This document shows positions 4,088-24,052 of a stretch of 64,000 nucleotides of DNA, one piece after another. This DNA comes from Eudorina sp. 2006-703-Eu-15. Its lineage: Eukaryota > Chlorophyta > Chlorophyceae > Chlamydomonadales > Volvocaceae. The stretch spans positions 186,001-250,000 of the forward strand of contig BDSI01000147.1 of NCBI GenBank assembly GCA_003117195.1, written 5' to 3'. The notes beneath the pieces are model-generated. The model was not told the origin of the DNA. It did not search any database and worked only from the letters and a program-made list of their open reading frames with translations. A program made the translations under genes and the position numbers. How positions within the stretch are numbered: the stretch's first letter is position 1; the number at the start of each line of letters is the position of its first letter.

Positions 4088-4091
4088 CGCT
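4088..4091. repeat. Target-site duplication (left), CGCT
   Basis: CGCT at 4088-4091 is repeated at 24049-24052. The empty-site sequence can be read in a homologous array unit near 50978-50996, where GAGCAC-CGCT-CGCTTCC is continuous. This sets both element ends to the base. Confidence 0.85.
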
Positions 4092-4146
4092 TGTCATGCC
4101 GCGTTACTGGCTCGCCGGGTTTCACGTACGGAACGCACCAACACTT
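4092..4146 (-). repeat. Split repeat arm B2 (55 bp)
   Basis: Identical to 4823-4877 over all 55 bp. It is the 3' terminal segment of the element and ends in CATGACA against the CGCT duplication. At its junction with A2 the minus strand reads CAG-GTAAGTG, a perfect consensus 5' splice site. Confidence 0.85.
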
Positions 4147-4820
4147 ACCTGGGTGATGTAGAAGAACTGATGCAACCGTATATGGCTGCGGTCGAGCAAT
4201 GAACTCCGTGTAAATACTGAGCTCCGCCGATGTCCTGTTTGAATCCAAATCAACTGATCACTATCCGCTATCGGCTCCAGATACCAATTCACGTTCCCAG
4301 ATGAAACTCAGGTATTACAGCAATTGTCGGTGCCTCAGGTGCTCTCCTAGCAACCTCTCTCGGCCCGCCGGGACTTATCCCTGCCCGATGCTGCGTCTCC
4401 GAAACAGTCTCAATCTGTTACGCAGTCACTTAATGTACCTAGGGCGTGGAGAACACTTTCTACGCATGCCCAGGAGCGCGGACTATGGCCGCGCTCAGCC
4501 ACAAAACTACCGAGATTCCCAAACATGCGCCCTCCTGGAGCGACGCGATCACTCAGACAGATCACGACGTCGGCAAACTAGCTACCAACTAGTAATATCG
4601 AAAGCTACTTAACCAGGAGAATTATGCCTGGTAATACCTTTAACAAAGCGGAAGCATCCGACGCGCGAGCGACCAACCGACCCATGGGTACACGCATCGA
4701 ACCCAACCAACCGCGGTCCTCTTCTATGGTTCTCCTAACCAACCCTGCCGACAGCTGGCGCGGAATTAGGCTCAAACCTCTTGCCGGTAAAACGAATGCT
4801 GCCGGTAATCCAGCACGACA
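4147..4820 (-). repeat. Split repeat arm A2 (674 bp)
   Basis: Nearly identical to 23381-24048. The only differences seen are a 6-bp tandem expansion (CCAACC) near 4700 and one transition near 4791. A TGTAA motif on the minus strand (plus-strand TTACA at 4315-4319) could be a poly(A) signal, as expected if this arm holds the transcript's end. It carries no believable ORF. Confidence 0.88.
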
Positions 4821-4822
4821 GC

Positions 4823-4877
4823 TGTCATGCCGCGTTACTGGCTCGCCGGGTTTCACGTACGGAACGCACCAACACTT
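4823..4877 (-). repeat. Split repeat arm B1 (55 bp)
   Basis: An exact copy of B2, placed directly before A2 with only GC between them. The B1-GC-A2 junction forms the palindrome GACAGCTGTC and resembles a joined pair of LTR ends. B1 is immediately preceded (sense direction) by a run of seven G. Confidence 0.85.
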
Positions 4878-4885
4878 CCCCCCCA
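4878..4885 (-). promoter_or_regulatory. Polypurine-tract-like G run
   Basis: On the minus strand CTGGGGGGG ends exactly where arm B1 begins (AAGTGTTGG). A purine run touching the 3' repeat is where plus-strand DNA synthesis is primed in LTR elements. If this is the true primer, the reverse-transcription unit would begin at B1 rather than A2, which bears on how the split repeats arose. The upstream neighbours are not otherwise purine-rich, so the assignment is tentative. Confidence 0.4.
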
Positions 4886-5002
4886 GCCGACAGAAACAGC
4901 GGAAAGCGCTGCGAGGGCGGCTGACGCGCAAGTTCACCCTTACTGCCCTGCGCATATCACAGCGCGGTGACTGATAACCCCACCCGAAAGCTGAAACCCT
5001 GC

Positions 5003-5788
5003 TCACAAGAACAACGCAGATGACTGATACTGCGCCTTCATCATGCGCTTCGCAATCAGCGCATTGGCGAACACGATCAACCAGACAAACCGGCGACCGT
5101 TCGCGCTTCGCGGCAAACACGCAGCGACAATCAACCGACCCCCATCACGCAAACCCTTCAGGAACCTCACCCGGGGCTCCGGTGCCTCCGTCAAGTAGGT
5201 ACCCGGCACCAGAATGCACGCGACAAAGGTGGCATATCGCGCCGCCAAAGGAAACGCCACGTCGAGTAACGACGCCTCGGGGCAGGACACGATTGCATCC
5301 AGCTTGCCCTCCAGCTGCAAGCGCTTGTAGAACACCGGCTGCAACGCATCCTCGTGCGTATCAGCGTCCCGTCGCGGATCCAGGTCGTCCGTGACCATGC
5401 GGAACCCACGCTCCTTGAACACCCACGCGATACCCCCGGTACCGACCCACGGGTCACAGACCCACGACACGGAGGACCAATCAAGCCGCTCGAACAGCGA
5501 CTCCACCACCGCAGGCGATGTAGAGGCCGACCCCATCATACCACGGGACGCAGCCTCGCCCGACAGAACACGACTCGGCGCGGACATCGACATCCTGGTG
5601 AGGCCTTGGGCGGTATGGCTCCCCGGCATCAGGTATTCCAGAGCCGCCCTCAGCCCCTCTCGGCGGTCGGTCGCCCAATAATCAGGCAGCTGGACGTCCT
5701 GCACCACCACCGTCGCAAAAGCGCGAGGCGGTTTCTTGCCCTCCGGCACCAGGAAGGACCGCACCGATTCATAATCAAACCGCTCCTC
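5003..5788 (-). CDS. Retroelement polyprotein, C-terminal part: Tudor-like end and SAM-methyltransferase-like domain
   Basis: This is the displaced end of the Ty3-type polyprotein. The LINE inserted within a Tudor/Agenet-like motif whose first half ends at 11714 (KRFLVKYEDGS) and whose second half resumes here (EERFDYESVRSFLVPEG). After a spacer comes a class I SAM-methyltransferase-like domain: motif I DPWVGTGG at 5432-5455, an acidic VTDDLDP strand-2 region, and SCPEAS (about 5270-5287) where amino-methyltransferases have (D/N/S)PP(Y/F/W). The changed motif IV suggests the catalytic site is altered or absent. The stop codon is at 5003. The frame is open throughout. A role in modifying or reading target chromatin is inference; an inactive relic is equally possible. 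The first residues of the open frame (before 5788) come from LINE sequence. Confidence 0.6.
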   Translation of the reverse strand, partial: EERFDYESVRSFLVPEGKKPPRAFATVVVQDVQLPDYWATDRREGLRAALEYLMPGSHTAQGLTRMSMSAPSRVLSGEAASRGMMGSASTSPAVVESLFERLDWSSVSWVCDPWVGTGGIAWVFKERGFRMVTDDLDPRRDADTHEDALQPVFYKRLQLEGKLDAIVSCPEASLLDVAFPLAARYATFVACILVPGTYLTEAPEPRVRFLKGLRDGGRLIVAACLPRSANGRRFVWLIVFANALIAKRMMKAQYQSSALFL

Positions 5789-5803
5789 ACTCCCATCCTC
5801 ATA
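5789..5803. repeat. LINE target-site duplication (3' side of LINE)
   Basis: ACTCCCATCCTCATA here is repeated at 11699-11713. The last three bases could also belong to the ATT-repeat tail, so the duplication is 12-15 bp. Confidence 0.88.
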
Positions 5804-5926
5804 ATAATAATAATAATAATAGTACGCCGGCCGAAGCCTGGCGTGTATTAAGGGGGTGGGGAACTGAGGGGTGGCGTAGTCACCCCTGTATGCCCGCACC
5901 ACCGGGGAAGCCTAGGTTGGTTATTA

Positions 5927-8110
5927 TCATTTTATCCCACCCTCCATCACTCGCCGGGTCCGGATGATTGCGCCTGCGGTTTCTATCGTGTGTCGATGGA
6001 TGTGCAGGCAGGTGCTGTGGGCCTGGTCGGTAGTCGCTCCGAGTCTGCAGAGGAGCGACTTAAGTGTAGTCGGCAGGGTTCCAGTACTGCCCAGTGTAAC
6101 TATTTGCTCCTCAGCGTAGTGCACTGTCCACCCCGCCTTTGTTAGTTCCTCTTTGAGTCTGGCATGCTGCGTTGTCTTCTGTGTTAGTTTGTCGGCATGC
6201 TGTAGGTCGCCAGTGTACCCCACTTCGATGATGTACACCTCGTGCTTGGTCTTGTCCACGGGTCCCTGGTAGCGTTTGCGCTTGGTTTTGTGAGAGGCGA
6301 GTGTGGGTATGAACATTATGTCAGGTCGGAGGCGTCGGATCTCTTCTTCAGTCAGATGCGGCAGCATCCATTGGGGTACCCGCGTGCTACTGCAGAACGG
6401 TGGGGTATCCTCTGCCTTGCCCGCGTCCATGACCATGAAACCGCCTCCGTAGCGGCCCCTGTTGAGGCAATCCGCAATAATGCGTGTCGCCTGGTTGTGC
6501 CGGTTGATGTACATGCCTTTAAACGTCGCGTGCTGGCAGCCTCCAAGTATGTGGGCTCCGGAGTCCGTTGTGGGGCCCGACGGGTTGCAATTGCGGCAGA
6601 CCGGGCAGTGGCCATCCCCGCCGCGACCGTACAATTTCTTCAGCTTCGCATTATACAAGAGTCCGTACCGTGCCTTCAGCACTTGGATTTTTAGCCAATG
6701 ACTAGTGTGAGAGCTGTTCAAGTAGGCGTTGCTGCATTTAGAGTCTAGCTTTGTCGACGCGTCGCGCCATTTTTCAGTTAGGGTCGTGTCGGTTGTATAT
6801 CCCGCGAACGTTTTCTTTTGGAGACCTTTGAGGATGCCCCTATTAAGGTCATTGATATATAGTCCTGTATCTTTTTGTCGTAGCCAGACCAGCTTATCGT
6901 ACGGGGCGTTATCTGCGGCCTCAATTACGGTTGGCTCGGCATTACCATGTGCTACCGCAGTTGCGCCTTCATCGGCCTTATCGTTTCCATGAACACCAGT
7001 ATGTGATTTTACCTTTATGAAATGGACAGTCGTGTTTTGTTGGGTGCAGTCGTACAGCATCTCAACAATTTCCATAAGCAAGGCTTTATGTTTGGAAATA
7101 TGCAATTTATTGGGTTCATTGATGGCTCTTTTTATGAGATCCAGTGATGCTTGTGAGTCAGTTGCTATGGTTAATGCGCGACTCGTGGTTTTGTGCTGCG
7201 CGATGGCCGCACGTATAGCCGACAACTCAGCCCGCTGGATTGTATTTGTACACCCTTCCCCGGCCGGGTCTACATGTAAGGTTTCCCCGGTAAGTTCGCA
7301 GTATGCTGCCGCACCAAGTCTGTTCGGGCCGTCGCCTGCGAGCGGTTTGACGCAACTACCATCAGTCCAAATTATAGTATGCAATGGGATACGTAGAGGC
7401 ATGGTGCCCGGGAACGCTTCCGCGAGCTCCCGCCGGAGCTCCTGTGCCTCTCGTCGGGGCACTTGTACTGTGGGCCTGGGCCTGGGCGTTGCCGAGTCGT
7501 TCATTCGTCGCATGGTCTGGGCAACCTTGCACGGGTAGGGTCGTTGGGTATGGCGACAATGTTCCTCGCTGTCGTGCTTGCGTAGGTGTTTCTTAGGTAG
7601 GCCGAAGGCCTCCGCGTCTTGGAGTTTCTGGAGGAGCGCCTTCATCGAGCGGGCATTCAGCCCACGCAGAGCTGTGTCGTTGGCAATGACGAAAATGTCC
7701 AAGCCCCCTTTGTACCCAGGGGCCAGGGTATCGGTGCCAACGCCTCCGGCGAGTGAGCACGTCAGACCGCGGCTGATCCGGCCGAGGTAAAACATGTAAG
7801 GGGTATCCAGAAGCGAGGTGTGGGCCCCGCTTTTGGTGTGAGGGGCAACGAGCAGTGTAGCTGTGGGTGCTGCGGACGCTGTGGTGTGCATCGCGCCAGC
7901 AACCGCCCACATTGCTGCCTTCTTGACACTGACGGGGTCAGGGTCTGGATGCGCAATTGAGAGCCCTGTGAATGGTTGGGAATAGGCGTCCACGTTGGCC
8001 CCGAACAGTTGATCTTCTGCATGTACACTGAAGTAGCATTCAATTTCTTCGGCACTGTTCAGTGGTGATGAGAACCGCTCCGCGACAGGGCCGGAGTCTA
8101 GGTCCTGCAA
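5927..8110 (-). CDS. LINE polyprotein, C-terminal part: RNase H, zinc knuckle, RLE-like
   Basis: 727 codons. RNase H type I is clear: IIWTDGS (about 7365), the acidic IQRAELSAIRAAI, ATDSQASL, and VKSHTGVHGNDKADEGA (about 6990). Then comes CPVCRNC...HILGGC...RHNQATR (about 6610-6480), the CCHC pattern that precedes the endonuclease in R2-like LINEs. Next are RPDIMFIP (about 6320) and YIIEVGYTG followed by K...HARLKEEL (about 6240-6130), resembling the PD-(D/E)XK core (RPD, then E/D-x-K-like). These would remove the RNA template and nick the target. The start at 8110 is simply the first ATG of the open frame; the protein probably continued from the 8098-10305 frame through a frameshift in the 13-bp overlap. 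Confidence 0.7.
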   Translation of the reverse strand: MQDLDSGPVAERFSSPLNSAEEIECYFSVHAEDQLFGANVDAYSQPFTGLSIAHPDPDPVSVKKAAMWAVAGAMHTTASAAPTATLLVAPHTKSGAHTSLLDTPYMFYLGRISRGLTCSLAGGVGTDTLAPGYKGGLDIFVIANDTALRGLNARSMKALLQKLQDAEAFGLPKKHLRKHDSEEHCRHTQRPYPCKVAQTMRRMNDSATPRPRPTVQVPRREAQELRRELAEAFPGTMPLRIPLHTIIWTDGSCVKPLAGDGPNRLGAAAYCELTGETLHVDPAGEGCTNTIQRAELSAIRAAIAQHKTTSRALTIATDSQASLDLIKRAINEPNKLHISKHKALLMEIVEMLYDCTQQNTTVHFIKVKSHTGVHGNDKADEGATAVAHGNAEPTVIEAADNAPYDKLVWLRQKDTGLYINDLNRGILKGLQKKTFAGYTTDTTLTEKWRDASTKLDSKCSNAYLNSSHTSHWLKIQVLKARYGLLYNAKLKKLYGRGGDGHCPVCRNCNPSGPTTDSGAHILGGCQHATFKGMYINRHNQATRIIADCLNRGRYGGGFMVMDAGKAEDTPPFCSSTRVPQWMLPHLTEEEIRRLRPDIMFIPTLASHKTKRKRYQGPVDKTKHEVYIIEVGYTGDLQHADKLTQKTTQHARLKEELTKAGWTVHYAEEQIVTLGSTGTLPTTLKSLLCRLGATTDQAHSTCLHIHRHTIETAGAIIRTRRVMEGGIK

Positions 8111-10305
8111 GGCTTTAATGAGTACGCACCACAGGTGTTCGTTAATAGTGGCCTGCGATCTTTGACCGCTCGATCGTTGGGGTCTCTGCTGTACCTCAGG
8201 AGGAGCCGCGCGACGTCTTCAGCAAAGCCGCCCTGGGCCGCGAGGCTTCGGTGGACCTCGGGGTAGGCCGTCGATGCGTGGTGATAGCGCTTTCGCAGGG
8301 TATCAAGGCGTTGCATGCTGAGTGTCCCCACACATTTCCCTCTTGGGTCATAGACGAAGGCCGTTGCGTCGTCGGTCATATTGCCATCAGCTGTGCGCCG
8401 GCCCAGCTGTATCTGGTACCGCCCCGTGGGTTGCGTGTCCGTGTACGGGTTACACGGCGAAGCCTCAAAGGTAGTGTTCGCGCGGATGAGTCGTGCGCGG
8501 TGTGCGTGGTCCAGGGTTGGCTGGTCCCATCGGCCTTGCCTCTGCTGGTTCGTGAGGGCGGTGTCGCGGGGCTTGGTGTACACCAATCGGGGAGCCGCGC
8601 TGCGCAGCTGTTTCTGCTTAAACCTAGCCAGGGCGTCTGGTCCGCTCGGCAGCCTCTCCAGATGTGCCGCGGGGATGTCTGACGGTTCCCACACCGCCCG
8701 TCGGAAGTAACGGTCCATCCGGGTGCCGTAGAGCCCCTTCACCGGCAGGAGCTGTTTCGGCACGTACCCCATGCTTTTGTACGCGTCGACAACTGACATC
8801 GGGATGATTGTGTCGTTCCATCGGACTGTGTAGTACCGTTCATGTGTCACTGCTGATTTGCCCGTCCCGACTTTCTGCTTCTTGGAGGATCTCGCGCTTG
8901 TGGGTGCGACTCGTTTAGTGATTGGGCCCGCGAGGACCTCGGCGATGTCCTCCGCTTCATTGTACAGGTCGTATACTAATTGCTGCTGTCCCGTGGTGTC
9001 CTCGGCTTTGCCCTTTCCAGACTTCCAGGGGATACAGTTTTGGAGGATCTGCTTCCGAGCGACTTGCCACTGTGGCCACCACCACTGGGGGATAAGATGC
9101 TCCTGATGTGGCGTCGGTGCTGGCGACACTATGTACGGTCCGGATGTTCGCGGCTCGTCGCCGAGTTCCACCTCTACAGTAGTCATTACAGCGGCGTCCT
9201 CGGCGCCATCGCTCCGCCGAGCGCGGGGCGCCGCTGGCGTGTCATCAAGCCCTTTGCTGGCGAGGTACGCTAGGACAGGGTTTGGGGATTCTGTGCCCTG
9301 CTCCTCGTCTAGCCTGGGGGCCCTCCTGATACACGGTGTTTCACGGGTTATTGGGTTCGGGGGTGGCCGCGGTCCTTGTGCGACTGGTCCTTGCAGGGTG
9401 CCAAGGCTGGGCACGCATTTGCGTGTGTCCTGCCGCAGCGCGGCCATGACTCGCCGTGTTTCCATGCATGAGGTGCGATGTTCAGGAGTGGGATCGTGCA
9501 GCTGCACTCTGTGGATAGCCGCGTTTTCTGTTCCGACCGCCTTGTTATCACAACGTGTGTTGTTGTTGATGAAGTCTAGTTGCCTTTGTCTAAGTGAGCT
9601 CTTGCGCTTGCACCCAACTCGCTCGGCTTCCGCAGGCATATCCAGTGGTGGTGACGCTTCGGACTCCGGTGTATTTGCCGGCGACGTGGCCTTCTGACGG
9701 GTCCTTGTCGCGGTCGCACTCCACACAACTGGTGCGTTGCGGCTGACGTGCGGGTCAAGGGATGGCGTTATGACCGGTGTCGGGAGGCTCGATTTGTGCC
9801 TTAGGCCGGTGAATGTCGGGTTATCCGGGATCGCACGGAGTTTTCTGTCTTCCAGCGGCATCGCGGATGTCCATTTGCGTGGGTCGTGCATGCACGAGTG
9901 TGGGGCGTCGGGGCATTGGGAGCTTACGGCCAGACTCAGTCTGTTCAGCGCTACCTTGTGCCGGTGCTGCACCTTACCCCGGGGGAAGAGTTTTTGAAGC
10001 TCAGCGGTCGTGATCAGGTGCCGTTTGGTGTTCTTATCTATAAGTGAGTGCATATCAAGACCCAGCTCTGTCAGCGGGAGCAAGAGCCTGTACGGCAGAA
10101 TCTCTTCACGCGATTCCTGCTCGGCATTGACGGCGGTGGCTGCCGCCATAAGTGTGTTCAGGGAGGTGTTGTACGGCCTGCCTTTATCGGTCACCACGAT
10201 GCCGTGGTCGCGGGCGAGCGTGAGTTGCTTCAGAGTCGTGTAGAAGCTGCTTTCGCGCTGAGGCGCCTCAGCGTGTGCATCCTGGTGTCGGCGGCTAACT
10301 GACAC
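8098..10305 (-). CDS. LINE polyprotein, middle spacer region
   Basis: 735 codons between RT and RNase H. No family is recognised. It is rich in Pro, Arg and Thr in its middle (about 9700-9100) and contains a compact segment near 8870-8750 (YYTVRWNDTIIPMSVVDAYK) and a conserved-looking basic C-terminal part. The N-terminal residues (LTLARDHGIVVTDKGRPYNTS) look like the continuation of the RT thumb/linker, joined to the RT ORF by frame changes near 10270 and 10480. The first ATG is therefore unlikely to be a real start. Confidence 0.5.
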   Translation of the reverse strand: MSVSRRHQDAHAEAPQRESSFYTTLKQLTLARDHGIVVTDKGRPYNTSLNTLMAAATAVNAEQESREEILPYRLLLPLTELGLDMHSLIDKNTKRHLITTAELQKLFPRGKVQHRHKVALNRLSLAVSSQCPDAPHSCMHDPRKWTSAMPLEDRKLRAIPDNPTFTGLRHKSSLPTPVITPSLDPHVSRNAPVVWSATATRTRQKATSPANTPESEASPPLDMPAEAERVGCKRKSSLRQRQLDFINNNTRCDNKAVGTENAAIHRVQLHDPTPEHRTSCMETRRVMAALRQDTRKCVPSLGTLQGPVAQGPRPPPNPITRETPCIRRAPRLDEEQGTESPNPVLAYLASKGLDDTPAAPRARRSDGAEDAAVMTTVEVELGDEPRTSGPYIVSPAPTPHQEHLIPQWWWPQWQVARKQILQNCIPWKSGKGKAEDTTGQQQLVYDLYNEAEDIAEVLAGPITKRVAPTSARSSKKQKVGTGKSAVTHERYYTVRWNDTIIPMSVVDAYKSMGYVPKQLLPVKGLYGTRMDRYFRRAVWEPSDIPAAHLERLPSGPDALARFKQKQLRSAAPRLVYTKPRDTALTNQQRQGRWDQPTLDHAHRARLIRANTTFEASPCNPYTDTQPTGRYQIQLGRRTADGNMTDDATAFVYDPRGKCVGTLSMQRLDTLRKRYHHASTAYPEVHRSLAAQGGFAEDVARLLLRYSRDPNDRAVKDRRPLLTNTCGAYSLKPCRT

Positions 10306-10411
10306 TGCAGTTCCAGCATGGCTCTTGTCACAACGCCGAGCCGTCCCTCGTCGTTTAGGGAGAGAATCAGGGCGCGCGTTGCAGTGCGCGCATAGATCGG
10401 GAGCAGGGATC

Positions 10412-11698
10412 CTACCCCCAGTCCGTATTGCTCGGCTGGTAGTAGCACGGCGCGCGTGGGGAAGCTGGAGGGCAGGCCGTGGCGATGCGTGCTATCATCG
10501 CATCCAGGAGTCGTACATCGTTTGGAGTATACGCCATGGTGGGAAAGCTGTATGTCACCACTGTTTGGATACAGCTCTGTATAATCCTTATACACTGATC
10601 TGGCGTCGCCATGGAGCCTTGTAATAAGTCTCCCTTATCCCGTACTGCTTCGCAGACATGAGTCATTTGGGCGCTCCAGTTGAGAGTCATCGTTATAAGC
10701 ACCCCAAGGTACTTGTATGGTTCGGTGGGGGAGATGTACGGCACTGGCCGATCACTGATTTTGACTTTCGCATCCAGAGCCGCTTTGAGCGTGCGTTCGC
10801 ATGTCGGTCCATTCAGACCGCGGTCGGACCATGCCTTGCGGTGCAGGATGCCTGTCACAGCGCATTTCGAGTGATTCACTTGTAGACCCGCCCACTGGGA
10901 GTACAGGCTAATCTTGTCGCACTGTGTCTGCAGGTCCCGCGTGGTGTTGGTCAGCACCGCAAGATCGTCGGCATAAGCAGCCGAGCTGCAGTGATAGCGA
11001 GCGTTCAGGTCGTCGGAGAGGCATCCGTACTGGTGCCCTCGCCCGCCAACATGGAGCCATCGTAGGAGGGGCTCAAGAAAGATTATGAAGAGCACTGGTG
11101 AAAGTGTATCCCCCTGGACCGTGCCTCTTTCGATTTGGATTGGCGCTGTGGTACCATGTTCTGTCCGGATGCTTGTTCGGGCCTGGCTGTAGAGGTTGCG
11201 GACAACACGGATAAGGTCGTCTGGCAGCCCAAGGTCGTACATGATTTGAAGCAGCAGGTCGTGGTTGATCGTGTTGAACGCCGAGGAGAAGTCCACGTAT
11301 AGGACGTACAGGTCATTCCGCGTGAGCCCGGCATCTTCGATTGCGTGGAGCAGGTTCTGAATTTGCCGCTCTGTGTTTCTGTACCGAAGGAAGCCTTCTT
11401 GGGCCTCGCTAAACAGGGCCAGCTCCGGTGCGACGTCTCCGATAGACACCGTGATGAGGCTGGTCCAGAGCTTGTACAGCGTATTTGCTAGGGCGATGGG
11501 TCTCCTGTTCTTGAGGAGGAGCCCATCGCCAGGTTTAGGGAGCAGCACCGTGACAGACTCTGTCCAATCCTTCGGCGTGTGGGATTTGACCCACATAACT
11601 TTCATGAGGTCGTGGATGGTGGCCTGTAGGGCATCGGGCAGCGCCTTGAGGAGTTCGTTGGGAAGGCCGTCGGGTCCCGGCGTTTTGTTTCGGGCTAA
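10412..11698 (-). pseudogene. LINE reverse transcriptase, fused in frame to Ty3-type polyprotein
   Basis: Non-LTR RT motifs appear in order: TPGPDGLPNELL, RPIALANTLYKLW, FSEAQEGFLRYRNT, LYVLYVDFSSAFNTINH, RGTVQGDTLSPVLF, and AYADDLAVL with the catalytic YADD at 10964-10975. These belong to the LINE class, not the Ty3 class. The frame happens to be continuous with the host element's polyprotein across the insertion point (11698/11699), giving one 3301-codon open frame with two unrelated RTs. It stops at 10412. Conserved-looking sequence continues in a second frame (to about 10270) and then a third (from 10305), which points to two frameshifts. Confidence 0.8.
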
Positions 11699-11713
11699 AC
11701 TCCCATCCTCATA
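11699..11713. repeat. LINE target-site duplication (5' side of LINE)
   Basis: Second copy of ACTCCCATCCTCATA (see 5789-5803). It lies inside the Tudor-like coding segment of the Ty3-type polyprotein and marks the LINE 5' truncation point. Confidence 0.88.
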
Positions 11714-14700: not shown

Positions 14701-17700
14701 CCGACGCACGTCGCTCGTCACCATTCTGAGGGCTCTGCGCCAGCCAAGACGCCATAGCCTTCGGTCCCTCCTCCTCAGGCCGAACTAGCTCATCAGGTCC
14801 GGGGAGCGGAGACCCATCCAACCTGGCACCCCTGAGGTCCACTGCACTCTCAAGTGGCATGCGCGAAGGCAAGTCAGCTAACTGCTGCCCGCCAGGCAAA
14901 TACGCTATGTCAAAGTCGTATTCCTGCAAACACAACGCCCAACGCAACGACTGCCCAGACAAAGACTTGGTAGTTATGAGCCACCTTAAAGCCTGGTGAT
15001 CGGTGTAAATGGAGAACCGCCTCCCGTGCAAATAGCAACGAAGGGTCTTGCAGGCCCACACCACCGCCAGAAGCTCACCCTTCGTCGGCTCATAATTGCG
15101 CTCGTGCTTATTAAGGGACCGCGATATGCACAGACACAACCGCTCGTTACCCTCTTCGTCCTCCTGCGTAAGAACGGCCCCCAATCCCTGCTTGCTCCAA
15201 TCCGTGTAAAGACGTAGAGGGTGCACAGAATCAATGCGCTTAAGCACCCGATCAGTAGCGAACTCATGCTTCAAGCGTTCAAACGCATCCTGCTGTTCAG
15301 CACCCCACAACCACGCAACCCCTTTCCCCAGGAGGTCGTACAACGGGCGGCATATGCTGGAAAAGGCCGGAATGTAGCGCTGGTACCAGACCATGCTACC
15401 TAGAGCAGCTCGCAGCTCTGAAAGATTGCGTGGCGGCCGCATTTCCAAAATCGCAGCCACCTTCGCCCTCACCATCGAAGTACCCTCCGGCATGACCATA
15501 TGTCCCACAAATTCCACTTCCCGAGCACCGAAGTAGCTCTTATCGGGATGTAGGAAAAGGCCCTCCGAACGCATAGCCACCAACAACTTCTCCACATGCT
15601 CGAGGTGTTCCTCCCAAGTAACCGAGTGAATCATCACGTCATCGACATAAACCTTACAGAAATCCGACAACCCATGCCGTACTACTAACGAATCCATGAC
15701 ACGCTGGAACTTCGCACCAGCATTCATTAACCCGAACGGCATCGACTGAAACATCCACAACTGATTGCGCCACCAAAAAGCAGTCTTCGGCTGATCCTCA
15801 GGATGTACCGGAATCTGGAAGAACCCTGAACGCGCGTCAACCTTAGAGAAGAACTTGCACCCCGCCAGAGACTGCAGATGGTCGTCGATACGATGCAGAC
15901 CATAATAATCGCGCTGGGTATGTGTGTTGAGGCCCCGAAAGTCGATGCAGAACCGGACGTCAGTCCAATTCCCCTCAGTGTCCCGCTTGGCGGGCATTGT
16001 GGGACACGACGCATACTTAGTTTCCCCCTTGCACGGCACAATTATTCCCGCATCCCGCATCTCTTCACACTTCTTATCCCCGCACGCCAACTCTCCTGGG
16101 CTGTAACGCCTAGGTGGACTCACGATGTGGGCGTCAGTCATGAGATTTATACGGAAAGGCCCCTCAGGCCCAGAATAGCCCGTGAGATCCTTCAACGAGT
16201 AAGCAAAACTGCTCTTATTGCGCATCAAAATATCACGCATCTGCAGCCATCCTTCTTCACCAACCTCGGGGTGACCGCCGTAAATCCACCCGTGGTCAGG
16301 ATCCTTCACGTATCGCTTGTCAGGCGGCATGCTACTTTGCCCGTCCGGAAACAGCGACCCAATCGGCGAGACACCAGGTTCCCAACGAATGCCACCAACC
16401 ACGTGGCCAGGCGCAGTGGGTGCACGTTGACCAACAACTCCCCCGACGGCAGAAAAGACAGCGGAGTTTGCGCGCATCGCTTCCCCTGTCGCATTAATGA
16501 TCCCAGGTCCAACACCTGCCGTGAGCATGCCGGCGGCGCAAGCACTGAGGATAAAAAGGATGCCCAAAACTAAAGATGCAACACCACGTTTCCGCCCACG
16601 GCTCCAGAAGGGAGGCCTAGGCGGCGGCTCCTTACGGCGCTTCAAGATCTGTAAGCGACGGTACTGGCGCCGTGACATGCGAGGAGACGGGGATTCCCTC
16701 AAATTCGCAATATCAACTAACAGAGACACGCCACTCCAGGACTGCCGAACGGCCCACAACGGCACCCCCAGCAGATATAGCGCAATGTCTGCGGCCCACA
16801 CCAAAGGGGACGACAACGCCACAACTGGCCCCCAACACCACCACAAAAACAACAGACGCATCACCCACCAAACATCACCCAGCACCGAACCCTCGGCGAC
16901 ACCCACCACATCAACAGGCGGAGCCACCTTCTCACGCGCCACATGGCCCGCCAATGCCGCGATGTATGGGGGCCCCGCATCCATCTTCTCGCTGGGCGCC
17001 TCCGCCGGGTTATCAGGCGGCTCGCAACAACCGGCGTCTGCACTCGCAGATCTCCCCCCCCCAGCGCCGGTTGTTGCCACTACGATGTCCGGCGGCCCGG
17101 TGCCAGCCCCCATGCTGGCGGCCTCAGCAGAGGCGGGGTCTTCCTCCTTGCAAGCCGCCTCCGCAGCGGTATCCGACGGCGCAAGGTCCGCCTCCTTGCA
17201 GTCGGCCTCTGCAGCGGTATCCGGCGGCGCAGGGTCCGCCTCCTTGCAGTGTGCCTCCGCAGCGGTATCCGGCGGCGCAGGGTCCGCCTCCTTGCAGTCC
17301 ACCTCCGCAGCGGTATCCGGCGGCGCCGGGTCCGCCTCCTTGCAGTCCACCTCCGCAGCGGTATCCGGCGGCGCCGGGTCCGCCTCCTTGCAGTCCACCT
17401 CCGCAGCGGTATCCGGCGGCGCCGGGTCCGCCTCCTTGCAGTCCACCTCCGCAGCGGTATCCGGCGGCGCCGGGTCCGCCTCCTTGCAGTCCGCCTCCGC
17501 AGCGGTATCCGGCGGCGCCGGGTCCGCCTTCATTCGGGCCACGTTACGCATTTGGGCACGATGAAGCACCATTTCCCTCGCAATCCTCGCACGGGTATAC
17601 CGCCCCATTAGCCCACCGAGGCACAAGGAACGGCGTAGCTCGTCCGGATGAAACGGACGACCATACAGCTGTGGAGACCATGGAGGCAAGCACGGCTGAA

Positions 17701-19118
17701 TGTCGCGGCCGGGATCGTCGCCGTCCTCCAAATCCACCGATGAAACCGCCGCCGCAGTGTGAACACGCGGGCAGAATACTGACGTGAGGGCCGCCTGACA
17801 GGTAGACGGTCCGAAATCGATGCTGGGCACCGAAATGTCGAGGCTGTCGACGACTTCTGGACGGCCTTCGGGCAGATCAGGCCGGTAGAACAGCCGAGGC
17901 CGCGGGTACGGATCCACGTATGCAGCGACCTGGTTGGAATCGACCTTGCCCCACAAAAAGTCAAACTCGCCGTCGCCGTCGATTACTAACACCAATGACA
18001 TGGGCCGCAGGACCCGTCGCCGCTCAGGGTCATGCGGGCACAAGACCGTGCAGAGGTTAGCGACCTCGCACAGTTTCTCCGAGACGCCCATCGTCGTGGT
18101 GAGTCGAACCTTAGACGTCCGGTAGTTGATGCCATACCGCTGGCAGAACTTTCGGTCAACACAAGAGACGTTGGCCCCCTCGTCCTTCAACGTAGCCCGC
18201 AAAGGAATGTCTCGTCCGTTGTACCACAACCCCATCTGCTGGGGCCCAAGCAGGTAAAGACTGGAGTGGTTCAGGCCGCGGTATAACCGCAACTCTTCCG
18301 GCTCATCTGGCGCGCCGCTACACGAAACCGCCACGACTTTCATGGAGTGCGCAGCCATCCGCATGGCGTGATGCGGGCGAACGACTGGGATTGACGGAGC
18401 CCCCAACGATGGCGACGGCGGGACCCCGGGCGTTGATGGCGGTAGGTTAACCGGCCCCGGCGCTGTGGACGGGTGGGTCGCATCTGTCAAATGCGGCGCA
18501 CCCTCAGTAGACACTTGCGCAGCCGCCGTTGTGCTGCCGGTCGGATCCTTGGGGCTCCCTTTCCCCGCGGTCACGTTCACACAGACAGATATCCCTCCCG
18601 CAGCCATCGTAGTAGCTATCGGGTTGGCCAGCTGCACCGGCACCATGATTACCAAGTGGCTGTCTGTGTTGGGTTCCTGCGTGGAGGCTTCCTTGCTCCC
18701 CTGCCGGCGGGGACGCAGGCCCAGATCGGGAGGCGCTGGCGCATGGAAGGGTTTCGGCCGCGGCTGACCGCCAAGCCAAGCGGCGTGCGTTCCAGCCATG
18801 TCGTATGGGAAAAACAAGTCATCCGGCGACGGAGGCGGTGGCGACGTCGGCGAAGGCTGCGGCAGCGCGGCCTCCGGTAAAGCGCGCAGGGACGGCGGCG
18901 GCAGCGATGAAGGTGGTGGCGGTGCGGCCTCCAGCACAGCACGCGGGGACGGCGGCGGCAGCGATGAAGGTGGTGGCGGTGCGGCCTCCAGCACAGCACG
19001 CGGGGACGGCGGCGGCAGCGATGAAGGTGGCGGCGGTGCGGCCTCCAGCACAGCACGCGGGGACGGCGGCGGCAGCGATGAAGGTGGCGGCGGCGCGGCC
19101 TCCAGCACAGCACGCGGG
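11699..19118 (-). CDS. Ty3-type pol: protease, RT, RNase H, C5-methyltransferase-like, integrase, PHD finger
   Basis: One open frame. In order: protease-like LKDEGANVSCVD (about 18160-18187); a 16-residue repeat ADPAPPDTAAEVDCKE (17137-17530); hydrophobic segments at about 16740-16873 and 16490-16590; RT with YVDD at 15638-15649; RNase H (LYTDWSK, about 15190-15215; LADLPSR, about 14870). A DNMT-like domain follows: ILDLSDGP at 14333-14356, RCPEAG near 14060, and SRSVYVWSNL near 13830. The integrase has HHCC at about 13050-13165 and D, D, E at 12959, 12779 and 12674. A C4HC3 PHD finger lies at 11930-12071, and the first half of a Tudor-like motif ends at 11714. Ty3-like elements integrate cDNA through this integrase; PHD and chromodomain tails usually steer integration to chromatin. 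The reading frame upstream of 19118 is out of register because of minisatellite indels, so the polyprotein start is in gag. Confidence 0.8.
17137..17530 (-). repeat. 48-bp tandem repeat inside pol, about 8 units
   Basis: The unit GCCTCCTTGCAGTCCACCTC... has a 48-bp period and encodes 16 residues (ADPAPPDTAAEVDCKE) on the minus strand. The length is a multiple of 3, so copy number can change without a frameshift. Inner units are nearly identical; the outer ones differ at one or two codons. It sits between the protease-like and hydrophobic segments. Confidence 0.9.
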
Positions 19119-19650
19119 ACGGCGGCGGCAGCGATGAAGGTGGCGGCGGCGCGGCCTCCAGCACAGCACGCGGGGACGGCGGCGGCAGCGATGAAGGTGG
19201 CGGCGGCGCGGCCTCCAGCACAGCACGCGGGGACGGCGGCGGCAGCGATGAAGGTGGCGGCGGCGCGGCCTCCAGCACAGCACGCGGGGACGGCGGCGGC
19301 AGCGATGAAGGTGGCGGCGGCGCGGCCTCCAGCACAGCACGCGGGGACGGCGGCGGCAGCGATGAAGGTGGCGGCGGGGCGGCGGGGGGGCGGCGCGAGG
19401 TGGCGGCGGCGCGGCCTCCAGCACAGCACGCGGGGACGGCGGCGGCAGCGATGAAGGTGGCGGCGGCGCGGCCTCCAGCACAGCACGCGGGGACGGCGGC
19501 GGCAGCGATAAAGGTGGCGGCGGCGCGGCCTCCAGCACAGCACGCGGGGACGGCGGCGGCAGCGATGAAGGTGGCGGCGGCGCGGCCTCCAGCACAGCAC
19601 GCGGGGACGGCGGCGGCAGCGATGAAGGCGGGGTCCCCAATAACCGGGCG
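18895..19650 (-). repeat. 57-bp minisatellite joining gag to pol, about 13 units
   Basis: The anchor AGCACAGCAC recurs every 57 bp. In the gag and pol frames it encodes PRAVLEAAPPPPSSLPPPS. Two units break the period: 56 bp between 19104 and 19160 (one G lost in the run at 19116-19118), and 89 bp between 19331 and 19420 (a 32-bp insertion). Together they put gag and pol out of frame. No stop codon occurs in any of the six frames of the unit, so several long open frames cross it. Confidence 0.92.
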
Positions 19651-22600
19651 TACGACCAATGACTGTAGTATGTGCCACCGTAGTCGTAGTCATCCACGTA
19701 CGTCGCCAAATGCGACGATGGAGGATCACGTTCATCGGCAAAGCTGACCCGCCTCTGACGGTTGGAAGGCGCCGCAGCCACGGGCGGCTCGGCGGGTTGC
19801 GAAGACCCAGCTTGCCCGACAGCGGCGTGGGCCCCAGACGGCCCCGACGGCGGCGGCGGCTCGCCGTAGCCCCTAAAATGCTGATCCTCATCGCGCCTGT
19901 AGACTCTGCCTCGGTCGCCAACATGGGTACCATGTCCACCTCCACGGCCGCCATCAGGGTCGCCATACCCATTGCGAGCATCTCCACGGCCGCCTGGAGC
20001 AAACCCGTGACCGCGACCACGCCCGGCGTCGTAGCCACCCATCGGCCCACCGTAGACGCCGCCTTGGCCTTGCCAGCCGCGGTGAAAGCCGCCAGAAGGC
20101 GGAGGGTATGCCTCCGACTGCCCACCGTGGTACCCATGGCTGGGCGACGCAGCGTATCCATCCCCCGGTCCACGGCCCGGGCCGTTGCCGTAGCCGCCGC
20201 CCCAATATTCGGCGGAAGGCCCCGCAGGGCCCCCGCGCCCCCGGCCTCGCCCAGCTCCCACGCCTCCCGACCAGTTTCGCCCGTAACACATATTCGGCGG
20301 ATGAAATCTCCGACCACAGATCCCGCACAGGTCCTTCTTCATCTCCTCCAGCCACCGAGGGCAGGCATACACGTCATGCCCGTTGGACCCGCAGCAAAGA
20401 CACTGTGGAGGCGTGGGCCCCGTCGTCTGCGGCGGAGCAGGCGACGGAGGTGGCCGTTCCGCGACCGGGAACGGGGCAGGAACAGCGACCGGCGGTGCAC
20501 TTGACTCGCTTTCCTGCTGCTTCCCTTTACGACGAGCTCCTGATGACGCCACCGATGCGGTATTATTGGCGCGCGCCTGCTGCTGCTGTTTGGCAGGCGT
20601 CTGACGCCGTATGAACCCCCATTGGAGCAGAGGCTCGTGGTCATGCTGCGCCTCCAGGACCGCCTGCTCCAAGGCTTGCAGAAACTGCCCCAAATCGCCC
20701 GACACCGACACACCCGCCGCTTGGAACCGGCGTCCCACCTCTTGTCGCAGGAAGTCGTGGTTGATCCCTTCGATGAACCAACGAAACACGTCGACCACAG
20801 GTACCCCCTGCGTACTGAATTTAGGCAACGTCAGGATTGCCCGCATCCGCGCTACGCAGTCCTGCAGCGGCTCGCCATTCTGCTGCTGTACTTCCGCCTT
20901 TATCCATTCCCGGTCCTCCATGGTGAGATGTTCGCCGTACACCTCGCCCAGCTCCTGCCATAGCTGGGCCATCGGATTCATCACGGTAAAAGTAGGGTCT
21001 CGAAGGCATGCCCGTTGGCTCTGTTCATACTTTGCTCGTACGTCCAGGTATCGCTGGTGAAGACTTGCCGTAAACGGGGCCGGCCGCTTCGGCAAGAATT
21101 TTGGGAAATAATCGAAGAGGAGAGGGTCGTCATAACGGCACACCCCCAAGCCGTTCTGACTGGCCCACAGGAGCATGTTTCGCTGCAGTTGGAGGATGTG
21201 CAACCGGGACGTCCCCTGGATCCGCTGTTCATCCGACGGTTCGGACACCTTCAGCTGCGACATGCCGTATATGCGCCCGTGGTAACCAGGTGGAAGAGTC
21301 GGCGCCACGACGGTCGGTAGCGGCGATGCATACGGCAGTGCGGGTTGCCCCAGCGGTGGGGAGGCCGATTGTGCCGACGGCCGAGGTGGTGGCGGAACCG
21401 GCAGCGGCTGCACGTATTGCGGCTGAGGCAGAGACGGAGCCTCCGGCTGCGGCGGCGGTGGAGGAACCGGCGGTGACTGCAGTGCGTAATACGACAACAG
21501 AAATGACGAGACCTGCTGCTGTGGTTGCGGGGGCGGAACCGGAGTCGGTGATGGCGCATACTGCTGCTGTGGCTGCAGCGGAGCCTGCTGCTGCGGCGGC
21601 GGCGGCGGAACCGGCGGCGGCGGCTGCGCATACTGCGGCTGCAACGGAGGCGGGGCCTGCGGCTGCGGGCCCGCCGGCGGCGGCGGCGCATACTGCGGCT
21701 GCGGCGGCGGCGGCGGAACCGGAGGCGGCGGCTGCACATACTGCGGCTGCGGCGGAGGAGGGGCCTGCGGCTGCGGGCCCGCCGGCGGCGGCGGCGCATA
21801 CTGCGGCTGTGGCGGCGGCGGCGGAATCGGAGGCGGCGGCTGCGCATACTGCGGCTGCGGCGGAGGCGGGGCCTGCGGCTGTGGCGGCGGCGGCGGAACC
21901 GGCGGCGGCTGCTGCGCACCCTGCGGCTGCGGCGGAGGCGGGCCCTGCAGCTGCGGCAGCGGAGACGGAACCGTCGGCGGCGGCTGCGCATACTGCGGCT
22001 GCGACGGAGGCGGGCCCTGTGGCTGCGGCGGCGGCGGCGGAACCGGAGGCGGCGGCTGCGCATACTGCGGCTGCAACGGAGGCGGGGCCTGCGGCTGCGG
22101 GCCCGCCGGCGGCGGCGGCGCATACTGCGGCTGCGGCGGCGGCGGGGGAACCGGAGGCGGCGGCTGCGCATACTGTGGCTGCGGCGGAGGCGGGGCCTGC
22201 GGCTGAGGGCCCGCCGGCGGCGGCGGCGCATACTGTGGCTGCGGCGGCGGCGGCGGAACCGGAGGCGGCGGCTGCGCATACTGCGGCTGTGGCGGAGGCG
22301 CGGCCTGCGGCTGTGGCGGAGGCGGCGGAACCGGCGGCGGCGGCTGCGCACACTGCAGCTGCGGCGGAGGCGGGCCCTGCGGCTGCGGCAGCGGAGACGG
22401 AACCGTCGGCGGCGGCTGCGCATACTGCGGCTGCGACGGAGGCGGGCCCTGTGGCTGCGGCGGCGGCGGCGGAACCGGAGGCGGCGGCTGCGCATACTGC
22501 GGCTGCGGCTGAGGCTCGTACGGCACTGGCTGCTGCTGAGGCTGCGGGAGCTGCGGCGGCTGCGGCTCCATCGGCAGATCCGGCTGCGGCAAGTACGGCA

Positions 22601-23093
22601 CCGGCTGCTGTCCGGCCGCACACTGGTACTCCGCGGGGCCCTGCGGCCACCCTGGAAGATGAGCCGCGACCCCGGGAGGAGGGTCCGGGGCTGGTGGAGG
22701 CCGTTGGCCACGGCCGCCAATCGTAACCGACCCGTGGGGCGACACTGACCGCCGCCGCTCGACAAGATCCGCCTGAGCAGCAGCTTCCGCAGGCAGCCAC
22801 TGCTCCGCGGGGGGAAGGCCGAGGCCAGAGAGCAAACGCCGCGACGGTGACCACTCATCCGCCTCGACTCGGCGCCCCCCAGGCGCAACCCGACTCGGGT
22901 CACTGGGCCCAGGCCCTCCAACGGCCAGATCGTCCATATGCAACGCACTACCGGATGCACGGGCGCGCACTAGGGCAGCCGCAAGGAGCGCGGCGTCGGA
23001 CGTTGCAGGCGGGCGAGGGATGCCGCTGACTCCAGCACACGGTCGAGCGGCACCTGATGCCGCGGTGTCCGCCAACGCAGGCCCAGCGTACAA
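19390..23093 (-). CDS. Retroelement gag with capsid-like region and two CCHC knuckles
   Basis: The frame runs from ATG at 23093 to the minisatellite. The N-terminal 160 residues are Ala/Pro-rich. A long Pro/Gln low-complexity region (about 22610-21400) follows, then a helical gag-like region (about 21260-20600; YFPKFLPKRPAPFTASLHQRYL, LWQELGEVYGEHLTMEDREW). Two knuckles of CX2CX4HX4C type come next (CLCCGSNGHDVYAC at about 20362-20403; CGICGRRFHPPNMC at about 20287-20330), then a Gly/Arg-rich region resembling RGG RNA-binding tails (about 20260-19870). Its role is packaging of element RNA into particles. The open frame continues to 18819, but past about 19390 it is out of register and reads the minisatellite in a different frame. 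Confidence 0.75.
21400..22610 (-). repeat. Pro/Gln low-complexity tract in gag
   Basis: Imperfect repeats of PQPQYAQPPPPVPPPPP and APPPPAGPQPQ (about 90-130 bp periods with variants) make up about 400 residues. All complementary frames stay open because of the GGC/GCC bias, which creates an apparent 541-aa Ala-rich plus-strand ORF that is not a gene. Confidence 0.85.
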
Positions 23094-23380
23094 CGGGTTG
23101 TCGTGTACAGACGCAGACTGAATGCCCCCTGGGTCGCTTGACGGTCGGAGAGCGCGACGTAGCCTAGCGCTCCGTTCAATCTCCGGGTCCAGCGGGGCGA
23201 GTGGAGCTCCGGACGAACGAGTAGGCCTACGACCCTCCGCTGGCGGCCGCCGCGACGACGTAGGCCCAGCTGGCGCCTCCAGCGTATAAGACTAAACCAC
23301 AAAGGCCAAAACGACTCGAAAAACTCTCCACCGCTCCCGATGGATCAATCCTGGCCGATGCCAGGGATGGCTCCTGGGCA
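23094..23380 (-). other. Element 5' leader
   Basis: 287 bp between arm A1 and the gag ATG. On the minus strand it begins TTGCCCAGGAGCCATCC right after A1's CACCCAGG. No TGG-starting tRNA primer-binding site is visible next to A1. The short CCCAGG-TTG-CCCAGG direct repeat lies across the boundary. Confidence 0.5.
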
Positions 23381-24048
23381 ACCTGGGTGATGTAGAAGAA
23401 CTGATGCAACCGTATATGGCTGCGGTCGAGCAATGAACTCCGTGTAAATACTGAGCTCCGCCGATGTCCTGTTTGAATCCAAATCAACTGATCACTATCC
23501 GCTATCGGCTCCAGATACCAATTCACGTTCCCAGATGAAACTCAGGTATTACAGCAATTGTCGGTGCCTCAGGTGCTCTCCTAGCAACCTCTCTCGGCCC
23601 GCCGGGACTTATCCCTGCCCGATGCTGCGTCTCCGAAACAGTCTCAATCTGTTACGCAGTCACTTAATGTACCTAGGGCGTGGAGAACACTTTCTACGCA
23701 TGCCCAGGAGCGCGGACTATGGCCGCGCTCAGCCACAAAACTACCGAGATTCCCAAACATGCGCCCTCCTGGAGCGACGCGATCACTCAGACAGATCACG
23801 ACGTCGGCAAACTAGCTACCAACTAGTAATATCGAAAGCTACTTAACCAGGAGAATTATGCCTGGTAATACCTTTAACAAAGCGGAAGCATCCGACGCGC
23901 GAGCGACCAACCGACCCATGGGTACACGCATCGAACAACCGCGGTCCTCTTCTATGGTTCTCCTAACCAACCCTGCCGACAGCTGGCGCGGAATTAGGCT
24001 CAAACCTCTTGCCGGTAAAATGAATGCTGCCGGTAATCCAGCACGACA
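23381..24048 (-). repeat. Split repeat arm A1 (668 bp)
   Basis: The 5' terminal arm (sense). It begins TGTCGTGC against the CGCT duplication and matches A2 except for one 6-bp indel and one substitution. It lacks the 55-bp B segment that follows A2; the match ends at 23381, the same base at which A2 meets B2. A minus-strand TGTAA is present (plus TTACA at 23549-23553). Confidence 0.88.
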
Positions 24049-24052
24049 CGCT
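24049..24052. repeat. Target-site duplication (right), CGCT
   Basis: Partner of 4088-4091. Sequence after it (CGCTTCCTTTTCGCTGC) matches the uninterrupted array unit near 50987-51010. Confidence 0.85.

Follow-up and report, generated by a model that had tools for sequence, protein, structure and literature searches.

How does a retroelement with a DDE-type integrase come to carry direct repeats split in the manner of tyrosine-recombinase elements? The question is raised by a 64,000-nucleotide stretch of the green alga Eudorina sp. 2006-703-Eu-15 (contig BDSI01000147.1, positions 186,001 to 250,000), referred to here as the window. A first-pass annotation made from the letters alone had placed at 4092..24048 a Ty3-type element with the order A1-internal-B1-A2-B2. 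In the textbook view, long terminal repeat (LTR) retroelements and retroviruses insert from linear DNA, and two-LTR circles are dead ends. The findings described below suggest that the substrate of this element's integrase is probably a two-LTR circle, opened for insertion at a palindrome within the repeat, rather than the ends of linear DNA.

Repeat organization of the element

Sequence comparison within the window showed that the coding strand of the element is the minus strand, and that it reads from 24048 to 4092 as A1-internal-polypurine tract (PPT)-B1-GC-A2-B2, with 4-bp target-site duplications (TSDs) outside (Table 1). The annotated repeat A (668/674 bp) was indeed present at both ends, and the 55-bp B was absent after A1 and sat just before A2 instead. 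A1 and A2 differed by one substitution and one 6-bp indel, and B1 was identical to B2 across all 55 bp. The 4-bp duplication (CGCT on both sides) and the TG...CA ends were likewise as described; A starts with TGTCGTG and B ends with CATGACA. Two statements of the annotation had to be amended. The break between A and B, said to be flush everywhere, is flush at the A2-B2 joint in the window, but the two bases GC stand between B1 and A2. The outer borders hold, but part of the interval is a nested non-LTR retrotransposon; because this insert occupies ~5.9 kb, the Ty3-type element proper is ~14 kb long. The 15-bp target duplication of the nested element is TATGAGGATGGGAGT (coding strand). Its site is empty in the copies on C217 and C42, and the map of the C178 copy agrees. 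The frame of the nested element by chance continues the pol frame of the Ty3-type element, which gives a chimeric open frame of 3308 aa.

Table 1. Features of the Ty3-type element and its nested insert in the window
Feature	Position	Strand	Description	Basis
TSD, left	4088..4091	.	CGCT on + (AGCG on coding strand)	sequence
B2, outer 55-bp repeat	4092..4146	-	coding-strand end ...CATGACA	sequence
A2, 674-bp repeat	4147..4820	-	coding strand: start TGTCGTG, end CCCAGGT	sequence
GCTCCTGGGCA within A2	4467..4477	-	complement of predicted primer-binding site	sequence
GC spacer	4821..4822	-	centre of palindrome CATGACA-GC-TGTCGTG (proposed integrase site)	identical in 4/4 copies
B1, inner 55-bp repeat	4823..4877	-	adjoins PPT	sequence
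PPT	4878..4884	-	GGGGGGG, predicted plus-strand primer	sequence
C-terminal end of the element's own frame	5006..5803	-	resumed beyond nested insert	frame comparison
Nested non-LTR retrotransposon	5804..11698	-	~5.9 kb; reverse transcriptase (RT), RNase H, TAT-repeat tail, 15-bp duplication	Pfam, comparison with other copies
pol part of 3308-aa frame	11699..18600	-	RT, RNase H, HHCC, DDE integrase core, PHD finger	Pfam, PDB
gag-like open frame	18822..23291	-	CX2CX4HX4C motif near 20402	open frame and motif; without Pfam match
Predicted primer-binding site TGCCCAGGAGC	23370..23380	-	first base directly after A1	sequence
A1, 668-bp repeat at 5′ end	23381..24048	-	without B behind it	sequence
GCTCCTGGGCA within A1	23701..23711	-	proposed RNA 5′ end and self-primer	sequence
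TSD, right	24049..24052	.	CGCT on +	sequence

Recurrence of the structure in independent insertions

Copies were collected from one genome, a 181-Mb assembly of 3033 contigs, with the 5′ internal end, the 3′ internal end and the repeats (41 matches) as queries. For the 5′ internal end 40 of 50 candidates were scored, and for the 3′ internal end 21 of 21; because only the best candidates were scored, copy counts are lower bounds. The searches revealed one small family. A1 ran into the internal region without B in all four matches that reached this border (window, C217, C178 and C44), the sequence being CCCAGGT-TGCCCAG[G/T]AGCC with the hyphen at the border. Each of the four matches that included the 3′ internal end read PPT-B-GC-TGTCGTG (window, C217, C42 and C178). 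These border counts omit short A pieces that do not extend to a border, such as those on C4 and at C29:618612; the A1-border count also omits low-complexity matches, C8:1626267 and C44:855107 (end before the A1 border).

A second full copy, at C217:60797-105143, had the same repeat order between different flanks, with the TSD CAAT in place of AGCG (coding strand). A conventional LTR element interrupts its A1, and its internal region holds two more large inserts. The element inside A1 (C217:60923-68315, L032) is Ty3-like and has identical 356-bp LTRs adjoining a G tract and a 5-bp duplication, CGATG; its primer site, directly inside the LTR, is tRNA-like. Because this neighbour shows ordinary LTRs and a duplication, our methods do detect ordinary elements. 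Full-length copies in which each end bears an ordinary A-B repeat were also sought, and none was present among the scored matches.

Perfect 4-bp duplications lay directly outside A-start and B-end in six of the seven insertions having both ends: AGCG, CAAT, GTGT, CGGA, CGCT and CGAC in the window, C217, C178, C62, C15 and C169, respectively. In the seventh, an old copy on C19, three of the four duplication bases match. The C62, C15 and C169 insertions are solo A-B units, two of the three with internal losses. The C42, C29 and second C19 places have a B-end, but the outer A-start was not found in them. C44 has an A-start and no B-end; the copy there (C44:855012-857557) is a palindromic remnant with a large inverted segment. 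The first-pass annotation had considered two independent deletions at the same point unlikely. We rejected a one-off deletion or assembly error in view of the border counts and the existence of a second full copy. We also rejected B1 as a separate 55-bp insertion: B1 and B2 are identically placed in each copy having them, and B supplies the CA end used in insertion. The repeat structure is, close to certainly, real and recurrent.

B copies without A were also seen, at L022 and L024-L030 (C17, C2, C13, C73, C175 twice, C28 and C20). One side of these loose pieces ends with CATGACA, several retain GC, and the other side lies near the predicted reverse-transcription end; those on C2 and C73 extend a few G-tract bases further. 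Two B pieces face each other head to head at C20:951065-951176. The loose pieces could have been trimmed from ends and captured at breaks, or they could belong to another repeat.

Coding content

Seven reading frames covering most of the element were scanned. Pfam matches were obtained for RVT_1, RT_RNaseH, Integrase_H2C2, rve and a PHD finger. These Pfam scans gave no tyrosine recombinase. The best PDB match was Ty3, chain E (2.9e-69), and the integrase part matched foamy-virus integrase. Residues D1098, D1158 and E1193 of the integrase were invariant in all 15 aligned rows (window and 14 relatives), with 34 residues between the second D and E. Pfam, PDB and the invariant acidic residues thus agree with the annotated HHCC/DDE integrase of Ty3 type, and by its enzymes the element is a member of the Ty3 lineage. 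The C-terminal frame (5006-5911) matched no family in Pfam or NCBIfam and gave no PDB match below E 0.4. Scans of the window for tRNA genes and Rfam families found nothing.

Named eukaryotes among the 120 pol relatives listed were Haematococcus, Pleodorina, Astrephomene and Cymbomonas. Many of these 120 relatives contain PF00145 (C-5 cytosine methylase) and a PHD finger. The stretch in which relatives carry the methylase domain corresponds to 12300-16252 (minus strand) of the window, between RNase H and integrase; it gave no Pfam match and looks degenerate.

Predicted reverse-transcription signals

Because the G tract directly precedes B1, synthesis of plus-strand DNA should start at B-start. 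The predicted start of minus-strand DNA is A-end, which would make B-GC-A the LTR of replication. TGCCCAGGAGC, directly after A1, is the exact complement of the 11-mer GCTCCTGGGCA inside A. This 11-mer was intact (11/11) in 14 of the 16 distinct A copies covering the site and matched at 10/11 in the remaining two; it was conserved even in A copies only about 80% like window A. The count omits C217_A1a (site uncovered), L009 (the C217_A1b place), and L014 and L016 (too short), and includes L019. In Tf1, the first 11 nt of the RNA pair with the primer-binding site in the manner predicted here (PMC7175516). A tRNA primer was considered and rejected on the ground that no TGG-type site lies directly after A1, although a TGG sits 17 bp further on; the conventional element in the C217 A1, in contrast, has its tRNA-like site right inside the LTR.

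Insertion ends, joint variation and the proposed circle

The insertion ends are A-start and B-end, inside the predicted B-GC-A LTR, at CATGACA-GC-TGTCGTG. This site is a palindrome with a 2-bp spacer. Between the two insertion ends, 15 of the first 20 bases form an inverted repeat (chance about 4e-6, one fixed comparison). A 2-nt 5′ overhang after CA is the end form that integrases make by 3′ processing.

The proposed route is as follows. RNA would start in A at GCTCCTGGGCA, whose 11 nt would fold back onto TGCCCAGGAGC, next to A1, and serve as minus-strand primer in the manner of Tf1; GGGGGGG before B1 would prime plus-strand DNA. The product would be B-GC-A-internal-B-GC-A, a molecule with ordinary LTRs. 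Its ends would then be joined, A-end to B-start, to form a two-LTR circle. Integrase would cut CATGACA^GC^TGTCGTG after CA on both strands, giving two 3′-processed ends with 2-nt 5′ overhangs, which would be inserted with a 4-bp stagger. A circle opened at one of its two B-GC-A sites would yield A-internal-B-GC-A-B; the uncut site would persist as B1-GC-A2, and the A2-B2 border would be the scar of circle closure. Trimming of linear B-GC-A-internal-B-GC-A cannot give this unit, since B2 would have to come from beyond the right end of that molecule.

The repeats and joints were compared among copies. Identity between A1 and A2 of the same copy was 99.9% in the window, 97.7 and 99.3% in C217 (two A1 pieces) and 98.0% in C178, and A differed by 8-20% between these copies over most of its length. 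Likeness within and distance between copies is the pattern found for LTRs remade each cycle. The A2-B2 joint varied: CCCAGGT-AAGTG in the window, CCCAGGT-AGTG (one base shorter) in C217 and CCCAGGT-GG-AAGTG in C62. In C29, the 11-nt primer-binding site and 14 further bases lie between A and B, as when copying runs into the primer. The remaining borders were constant in place, with small G-tract differences. A variable A2-B2 joint beside constant inherited borders is expected if the joint is a scar of closure by end joining.

The C178 copy (C178:18845-33001) is rearranged and is the most informative one. Its 3′ half, including B1-GC-A2, is inverted; A2 is complete to its very last base, which abuts an internal point, and B2 minus its first 15 bases abuts another. 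The internal region has lost some parts and carries one part twice. The insertion ends are still A-start and B-end (CATGAAA for CATGACA), with the TSD GTGT. These features fit a molecule whose reverse-transcription ends were misjoined and whose insertion nevertheless used the palindrome.

The palindrome in related families

A search with pol gave 31 loci, from the best 35 of 912 candidates scored, of which 26 could be judged for the palindrome (loci on C205, C222, C298, C405 and C802 were left out). The palindrome lay downstream of pol at a near-constant distance, about 1.4-1.7 kb, in 24 of the 26, four of these belonging to the family of the window element. Between pol and palindrome this family has 1564-1567 bp (in the window 7474, including 5910 of nested insert and duplication). 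The distance was 1425-1434 bp in C29, C228, C114 and C69, 1613-1614 bp in C85 and C513, 1709 bp in C238 and 1444-1491 bp in thirteen further loci; the values for C238 and C38, one of the thirteen, were extrapolated from the RT part. Genome-wide, ATGACAGCTGTCGTGC with up to two mismatches occurred 210 times, vs 59 for the reversed control, and CTGACAGCTGTCRNGC 132 times, vs 0 for its control, with some sites counted on both strands. Part of the matches to both sequences belong to other repeats. Three palindrome matches on C134 (5189, 6421 and 7654) are 1232-1233 bp apart and may be a head-to-tail repeat array of another family.

Five contigs from bacterial metagenome-assembled genome records (L051-L055) encode pol relatives with 41-46% identity in the best segment. 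L053 contains ACGTGACA-GC-TGTCACG 57 nt after a G6 run, and L055 the identical sequence 56 nt after a G6 run; L054 contains ACGACA-GC-TGTCACG 108 nt after a G7 run. The corresponding spacing in the window is 55. At a looser cut-off, L053 and L055 gave four hits, including their CA-GC-TG sites, and first-order resamples of the five contigs gave 0.37 per set; the L054 palindrome scores below this cut-off. The palindrome lies 1.4-1.5 kb past pol in L053 and L055 and 0.8 kb past it in L054, a collapsed circular contig in which A runs into gag. No palindrome was found in L051 or L052, which stop about 0.8-0.9 kb past the pol match, too early for the distance in L053 and L055 but, by comparison with L054, not clearly too early. 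Among viral contigs no relatives were found; a motif scan gave 75 stretches, none with a pol match.

It is somewhat more likely than not that a green-algal Ty3 clade, with at least four families here by pol identity and spacing plus the environmental-contig relatives, inserts only from two-LTR circles. In that case its DDE integrase would recognise a fixed palindrome inside the LTR, the ends of reverse transcription and of insertion would differ by design, and the split order of the repeats would be a consequence.

Evidence against the proposed route

Several observations weigh against circle insertion or its extension to the clade. Only two copies are complete and unrearranged, and that on C217 holds three large inserts. 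The RNA start, priming, circle and cutting are steps that we infer from the observed repeat order, duplications, G tract, complementarity, palindrome and domains. The C217 binding site carries one change. An inverted 11-mer arose somewhere in the resampled stretch in 30 of 500 trials; because chance yields such a pair this often, the argument for self-priming rests on position and conservation. Among the environmental contigs, the inverted 12-mer of L053 is weak (86/500 resamples), the 13-mer of L054 is better (7/500), and the L055 stretch has no inverted match of 10 nt or more. C32 and C73 have no palindrome at the expected place among the matches listed. Within the sequence covered, terminal B2 was not seen in the other families or in L053, L054 and L055. 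The A of C178 is 97-99% like those of C62 and C44, vs 98.0% between its own A1 and A2 (95.9% counting gaps), and the first 133 bp of C217 A are 97% like window A; the within-copy argument therefore rests mainly on the window and C217. It is possible but unlikely that the C178 inversion postdates insertion, with an end at that exact base by chance. Finally, the circle model does not account for the loose B pieces.

Alternative explanations

The joint between A-end and B-start could be made in head-to-tail linear multimers, with integrase cutting two B-GC-A sites. This route would yield the same A-internal-B-GC-A-B unit with the same variable A2-B2 joint, and the C178 copy, in which A2 leads into a second internal stretch, part of it present twice, could derive from two joined molecules. 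However, cutting at neighbouring sites would often give A-internal-B or A-B, and A-internal-B was found in none of the four copies with the 3′ internal end; a circle requires just one joining and one opening. We consider the multimer route unlikely.

Integrase might instead trim 57 bp off the left end of linear DNA, with B2 added by a separate step. Loose B pieces, several with GC, could be the trimmed ends, but trimming gives no source for a B2 with the duplication directly outside it, as seen in six insertions, and this explanation appears quite improbable.

An ordinary LTR element altered after insertion by deletion or gene conversion, or an assembly error, has hardly any plausibility left: such alterations do occur, and A1 is 6 bp shorter than A2, but insertions that arose independently, each with its own contig and duplication, share the same borders, the second full copy refutes it, and the element nested in the C217 A1 shows ordinary identical LTRs in the same genome. 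Equally implausible is a PAT-like DIRS element, or a Ty3 element mobilised in trans by a tyrosine recombinase: the repeat order is the same and PAT-like elements are known from Chlamydomonas and Volvox (PMC3266345), but Pfam found no tyrosine recombinase in the seven frames, HHCC and DDE integrase motifs are present, and there are 4-bp duplications here, vs none in the DIRS1-like model (passages of PMC3266345). Insertion of a two-LTR circle remains the reading that we prefer.

Surroundings of the element

To the right of the element, the window contains a large array of diverged direct repeats of roughly 2 kb (about 25000-55000). A 149-bp tandem array lies at its left end (982-2076).

Comparison with known systems

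PAT-like elements have split direct repeats, and the order A-coding-B-A-B is given for DIRS-type elements (passages of PMC4157794 and PMC5890265); a circular DNA intermediate has been proposed for the latter (PMC4157794, PMC3266345 and PMC5890265, in part). For DIRS1-like elements, the circle model in PMC3266345 is presented without target duplication. PAT-like DIRS elements (Pat1, TOC and kangaroo) and the window element thus have A-internal-B-A-B split direct repeats in common. The former have a tyrosine recombinase, with no duplication in the DIRS1 model, whereas the window element has a DDE integrase and a 4-bp duplication. The annotated PAT-like order in a DDE Ty3-type element stands as to order and integrase; PAT membership is not supported, since no tyrosine recombinase was found and the target duplication is present. 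The palindrome and the self-priming site are additions to the first-pass annotation, which offered no mechanism. The first-pass annotation knew of no Ty3-type family built in this way, and no Ty3 element with split repeats stood out among the titles and abstract openings listed from open-licence papers. The element would show that split direct repeats can arise in the Ty3 lineage without a tyrosine recombinase.

The window element has in common with Ty3/gypsy elements (Metaviridae) the order RT-RNase H-integrase and the HHCC and DDE core. A fixed short target duplication, characteristic of Ty3/gypsy, is present, of 4 bp here and 5 bp in the conventional Ty3-like neighbour. Ty3/gypsy elements carry the same unbroken LTR at each end, directly adjoining primer site and PPT; the window element, in contrast, has A1 without B and PPT-B1-GC-A2-B2. 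Its insertion ends lie inside the LTR predicted from the reverse-transcription signals. This anatomy would account for possible misreading of such elements by LTR-finding programs. Tf1 has ordinary LTRs. An 11-nt complement to the primer-binding site, in Tf1 the 5′ end of the RNA (PMC7175516), is present and conserved in the window element, where it is predicted to stand at the RNA start. Gypsy elements with a cytosine methylase (KnitGypsy-Dnmt3) are a further comparison: many of the 120 listed pol relatives, green-algal and metagenomic ones included, have PF00145 and a PHD finger, whereas the equivalent methylase stretch of the window element is without a Pfam match.

Foamy-virus integrase, according to PMC1180852, cleaves the palindrome at a two-LTR joint behind CA in both strands, and the resulting 3′-processed ends have lost 2 nt. 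The same source recounts that circles were originally put forward as the precursors of several retroviruses, whereas they now count as dead ends. In foamy virus the palindrome forms at the LTR-LTR joint, whereas in the window element its place is fixed and internal, 55 bp away from the joint. Such a fixed site is what a mechanism of this kind would require if the circle joint is imprecise. The anatomy of the window element is hardly attainable without first joining both ends, and the element would offer a testable natural system of circle integration for a DDE integrase. If circle insertion is true, it would exemplify in nature the circle-precursor model that was abandoned for retroviruses; if it extends to the clade, the DIRS/PAT cycle would have a counterpart based on a DDE integrase.

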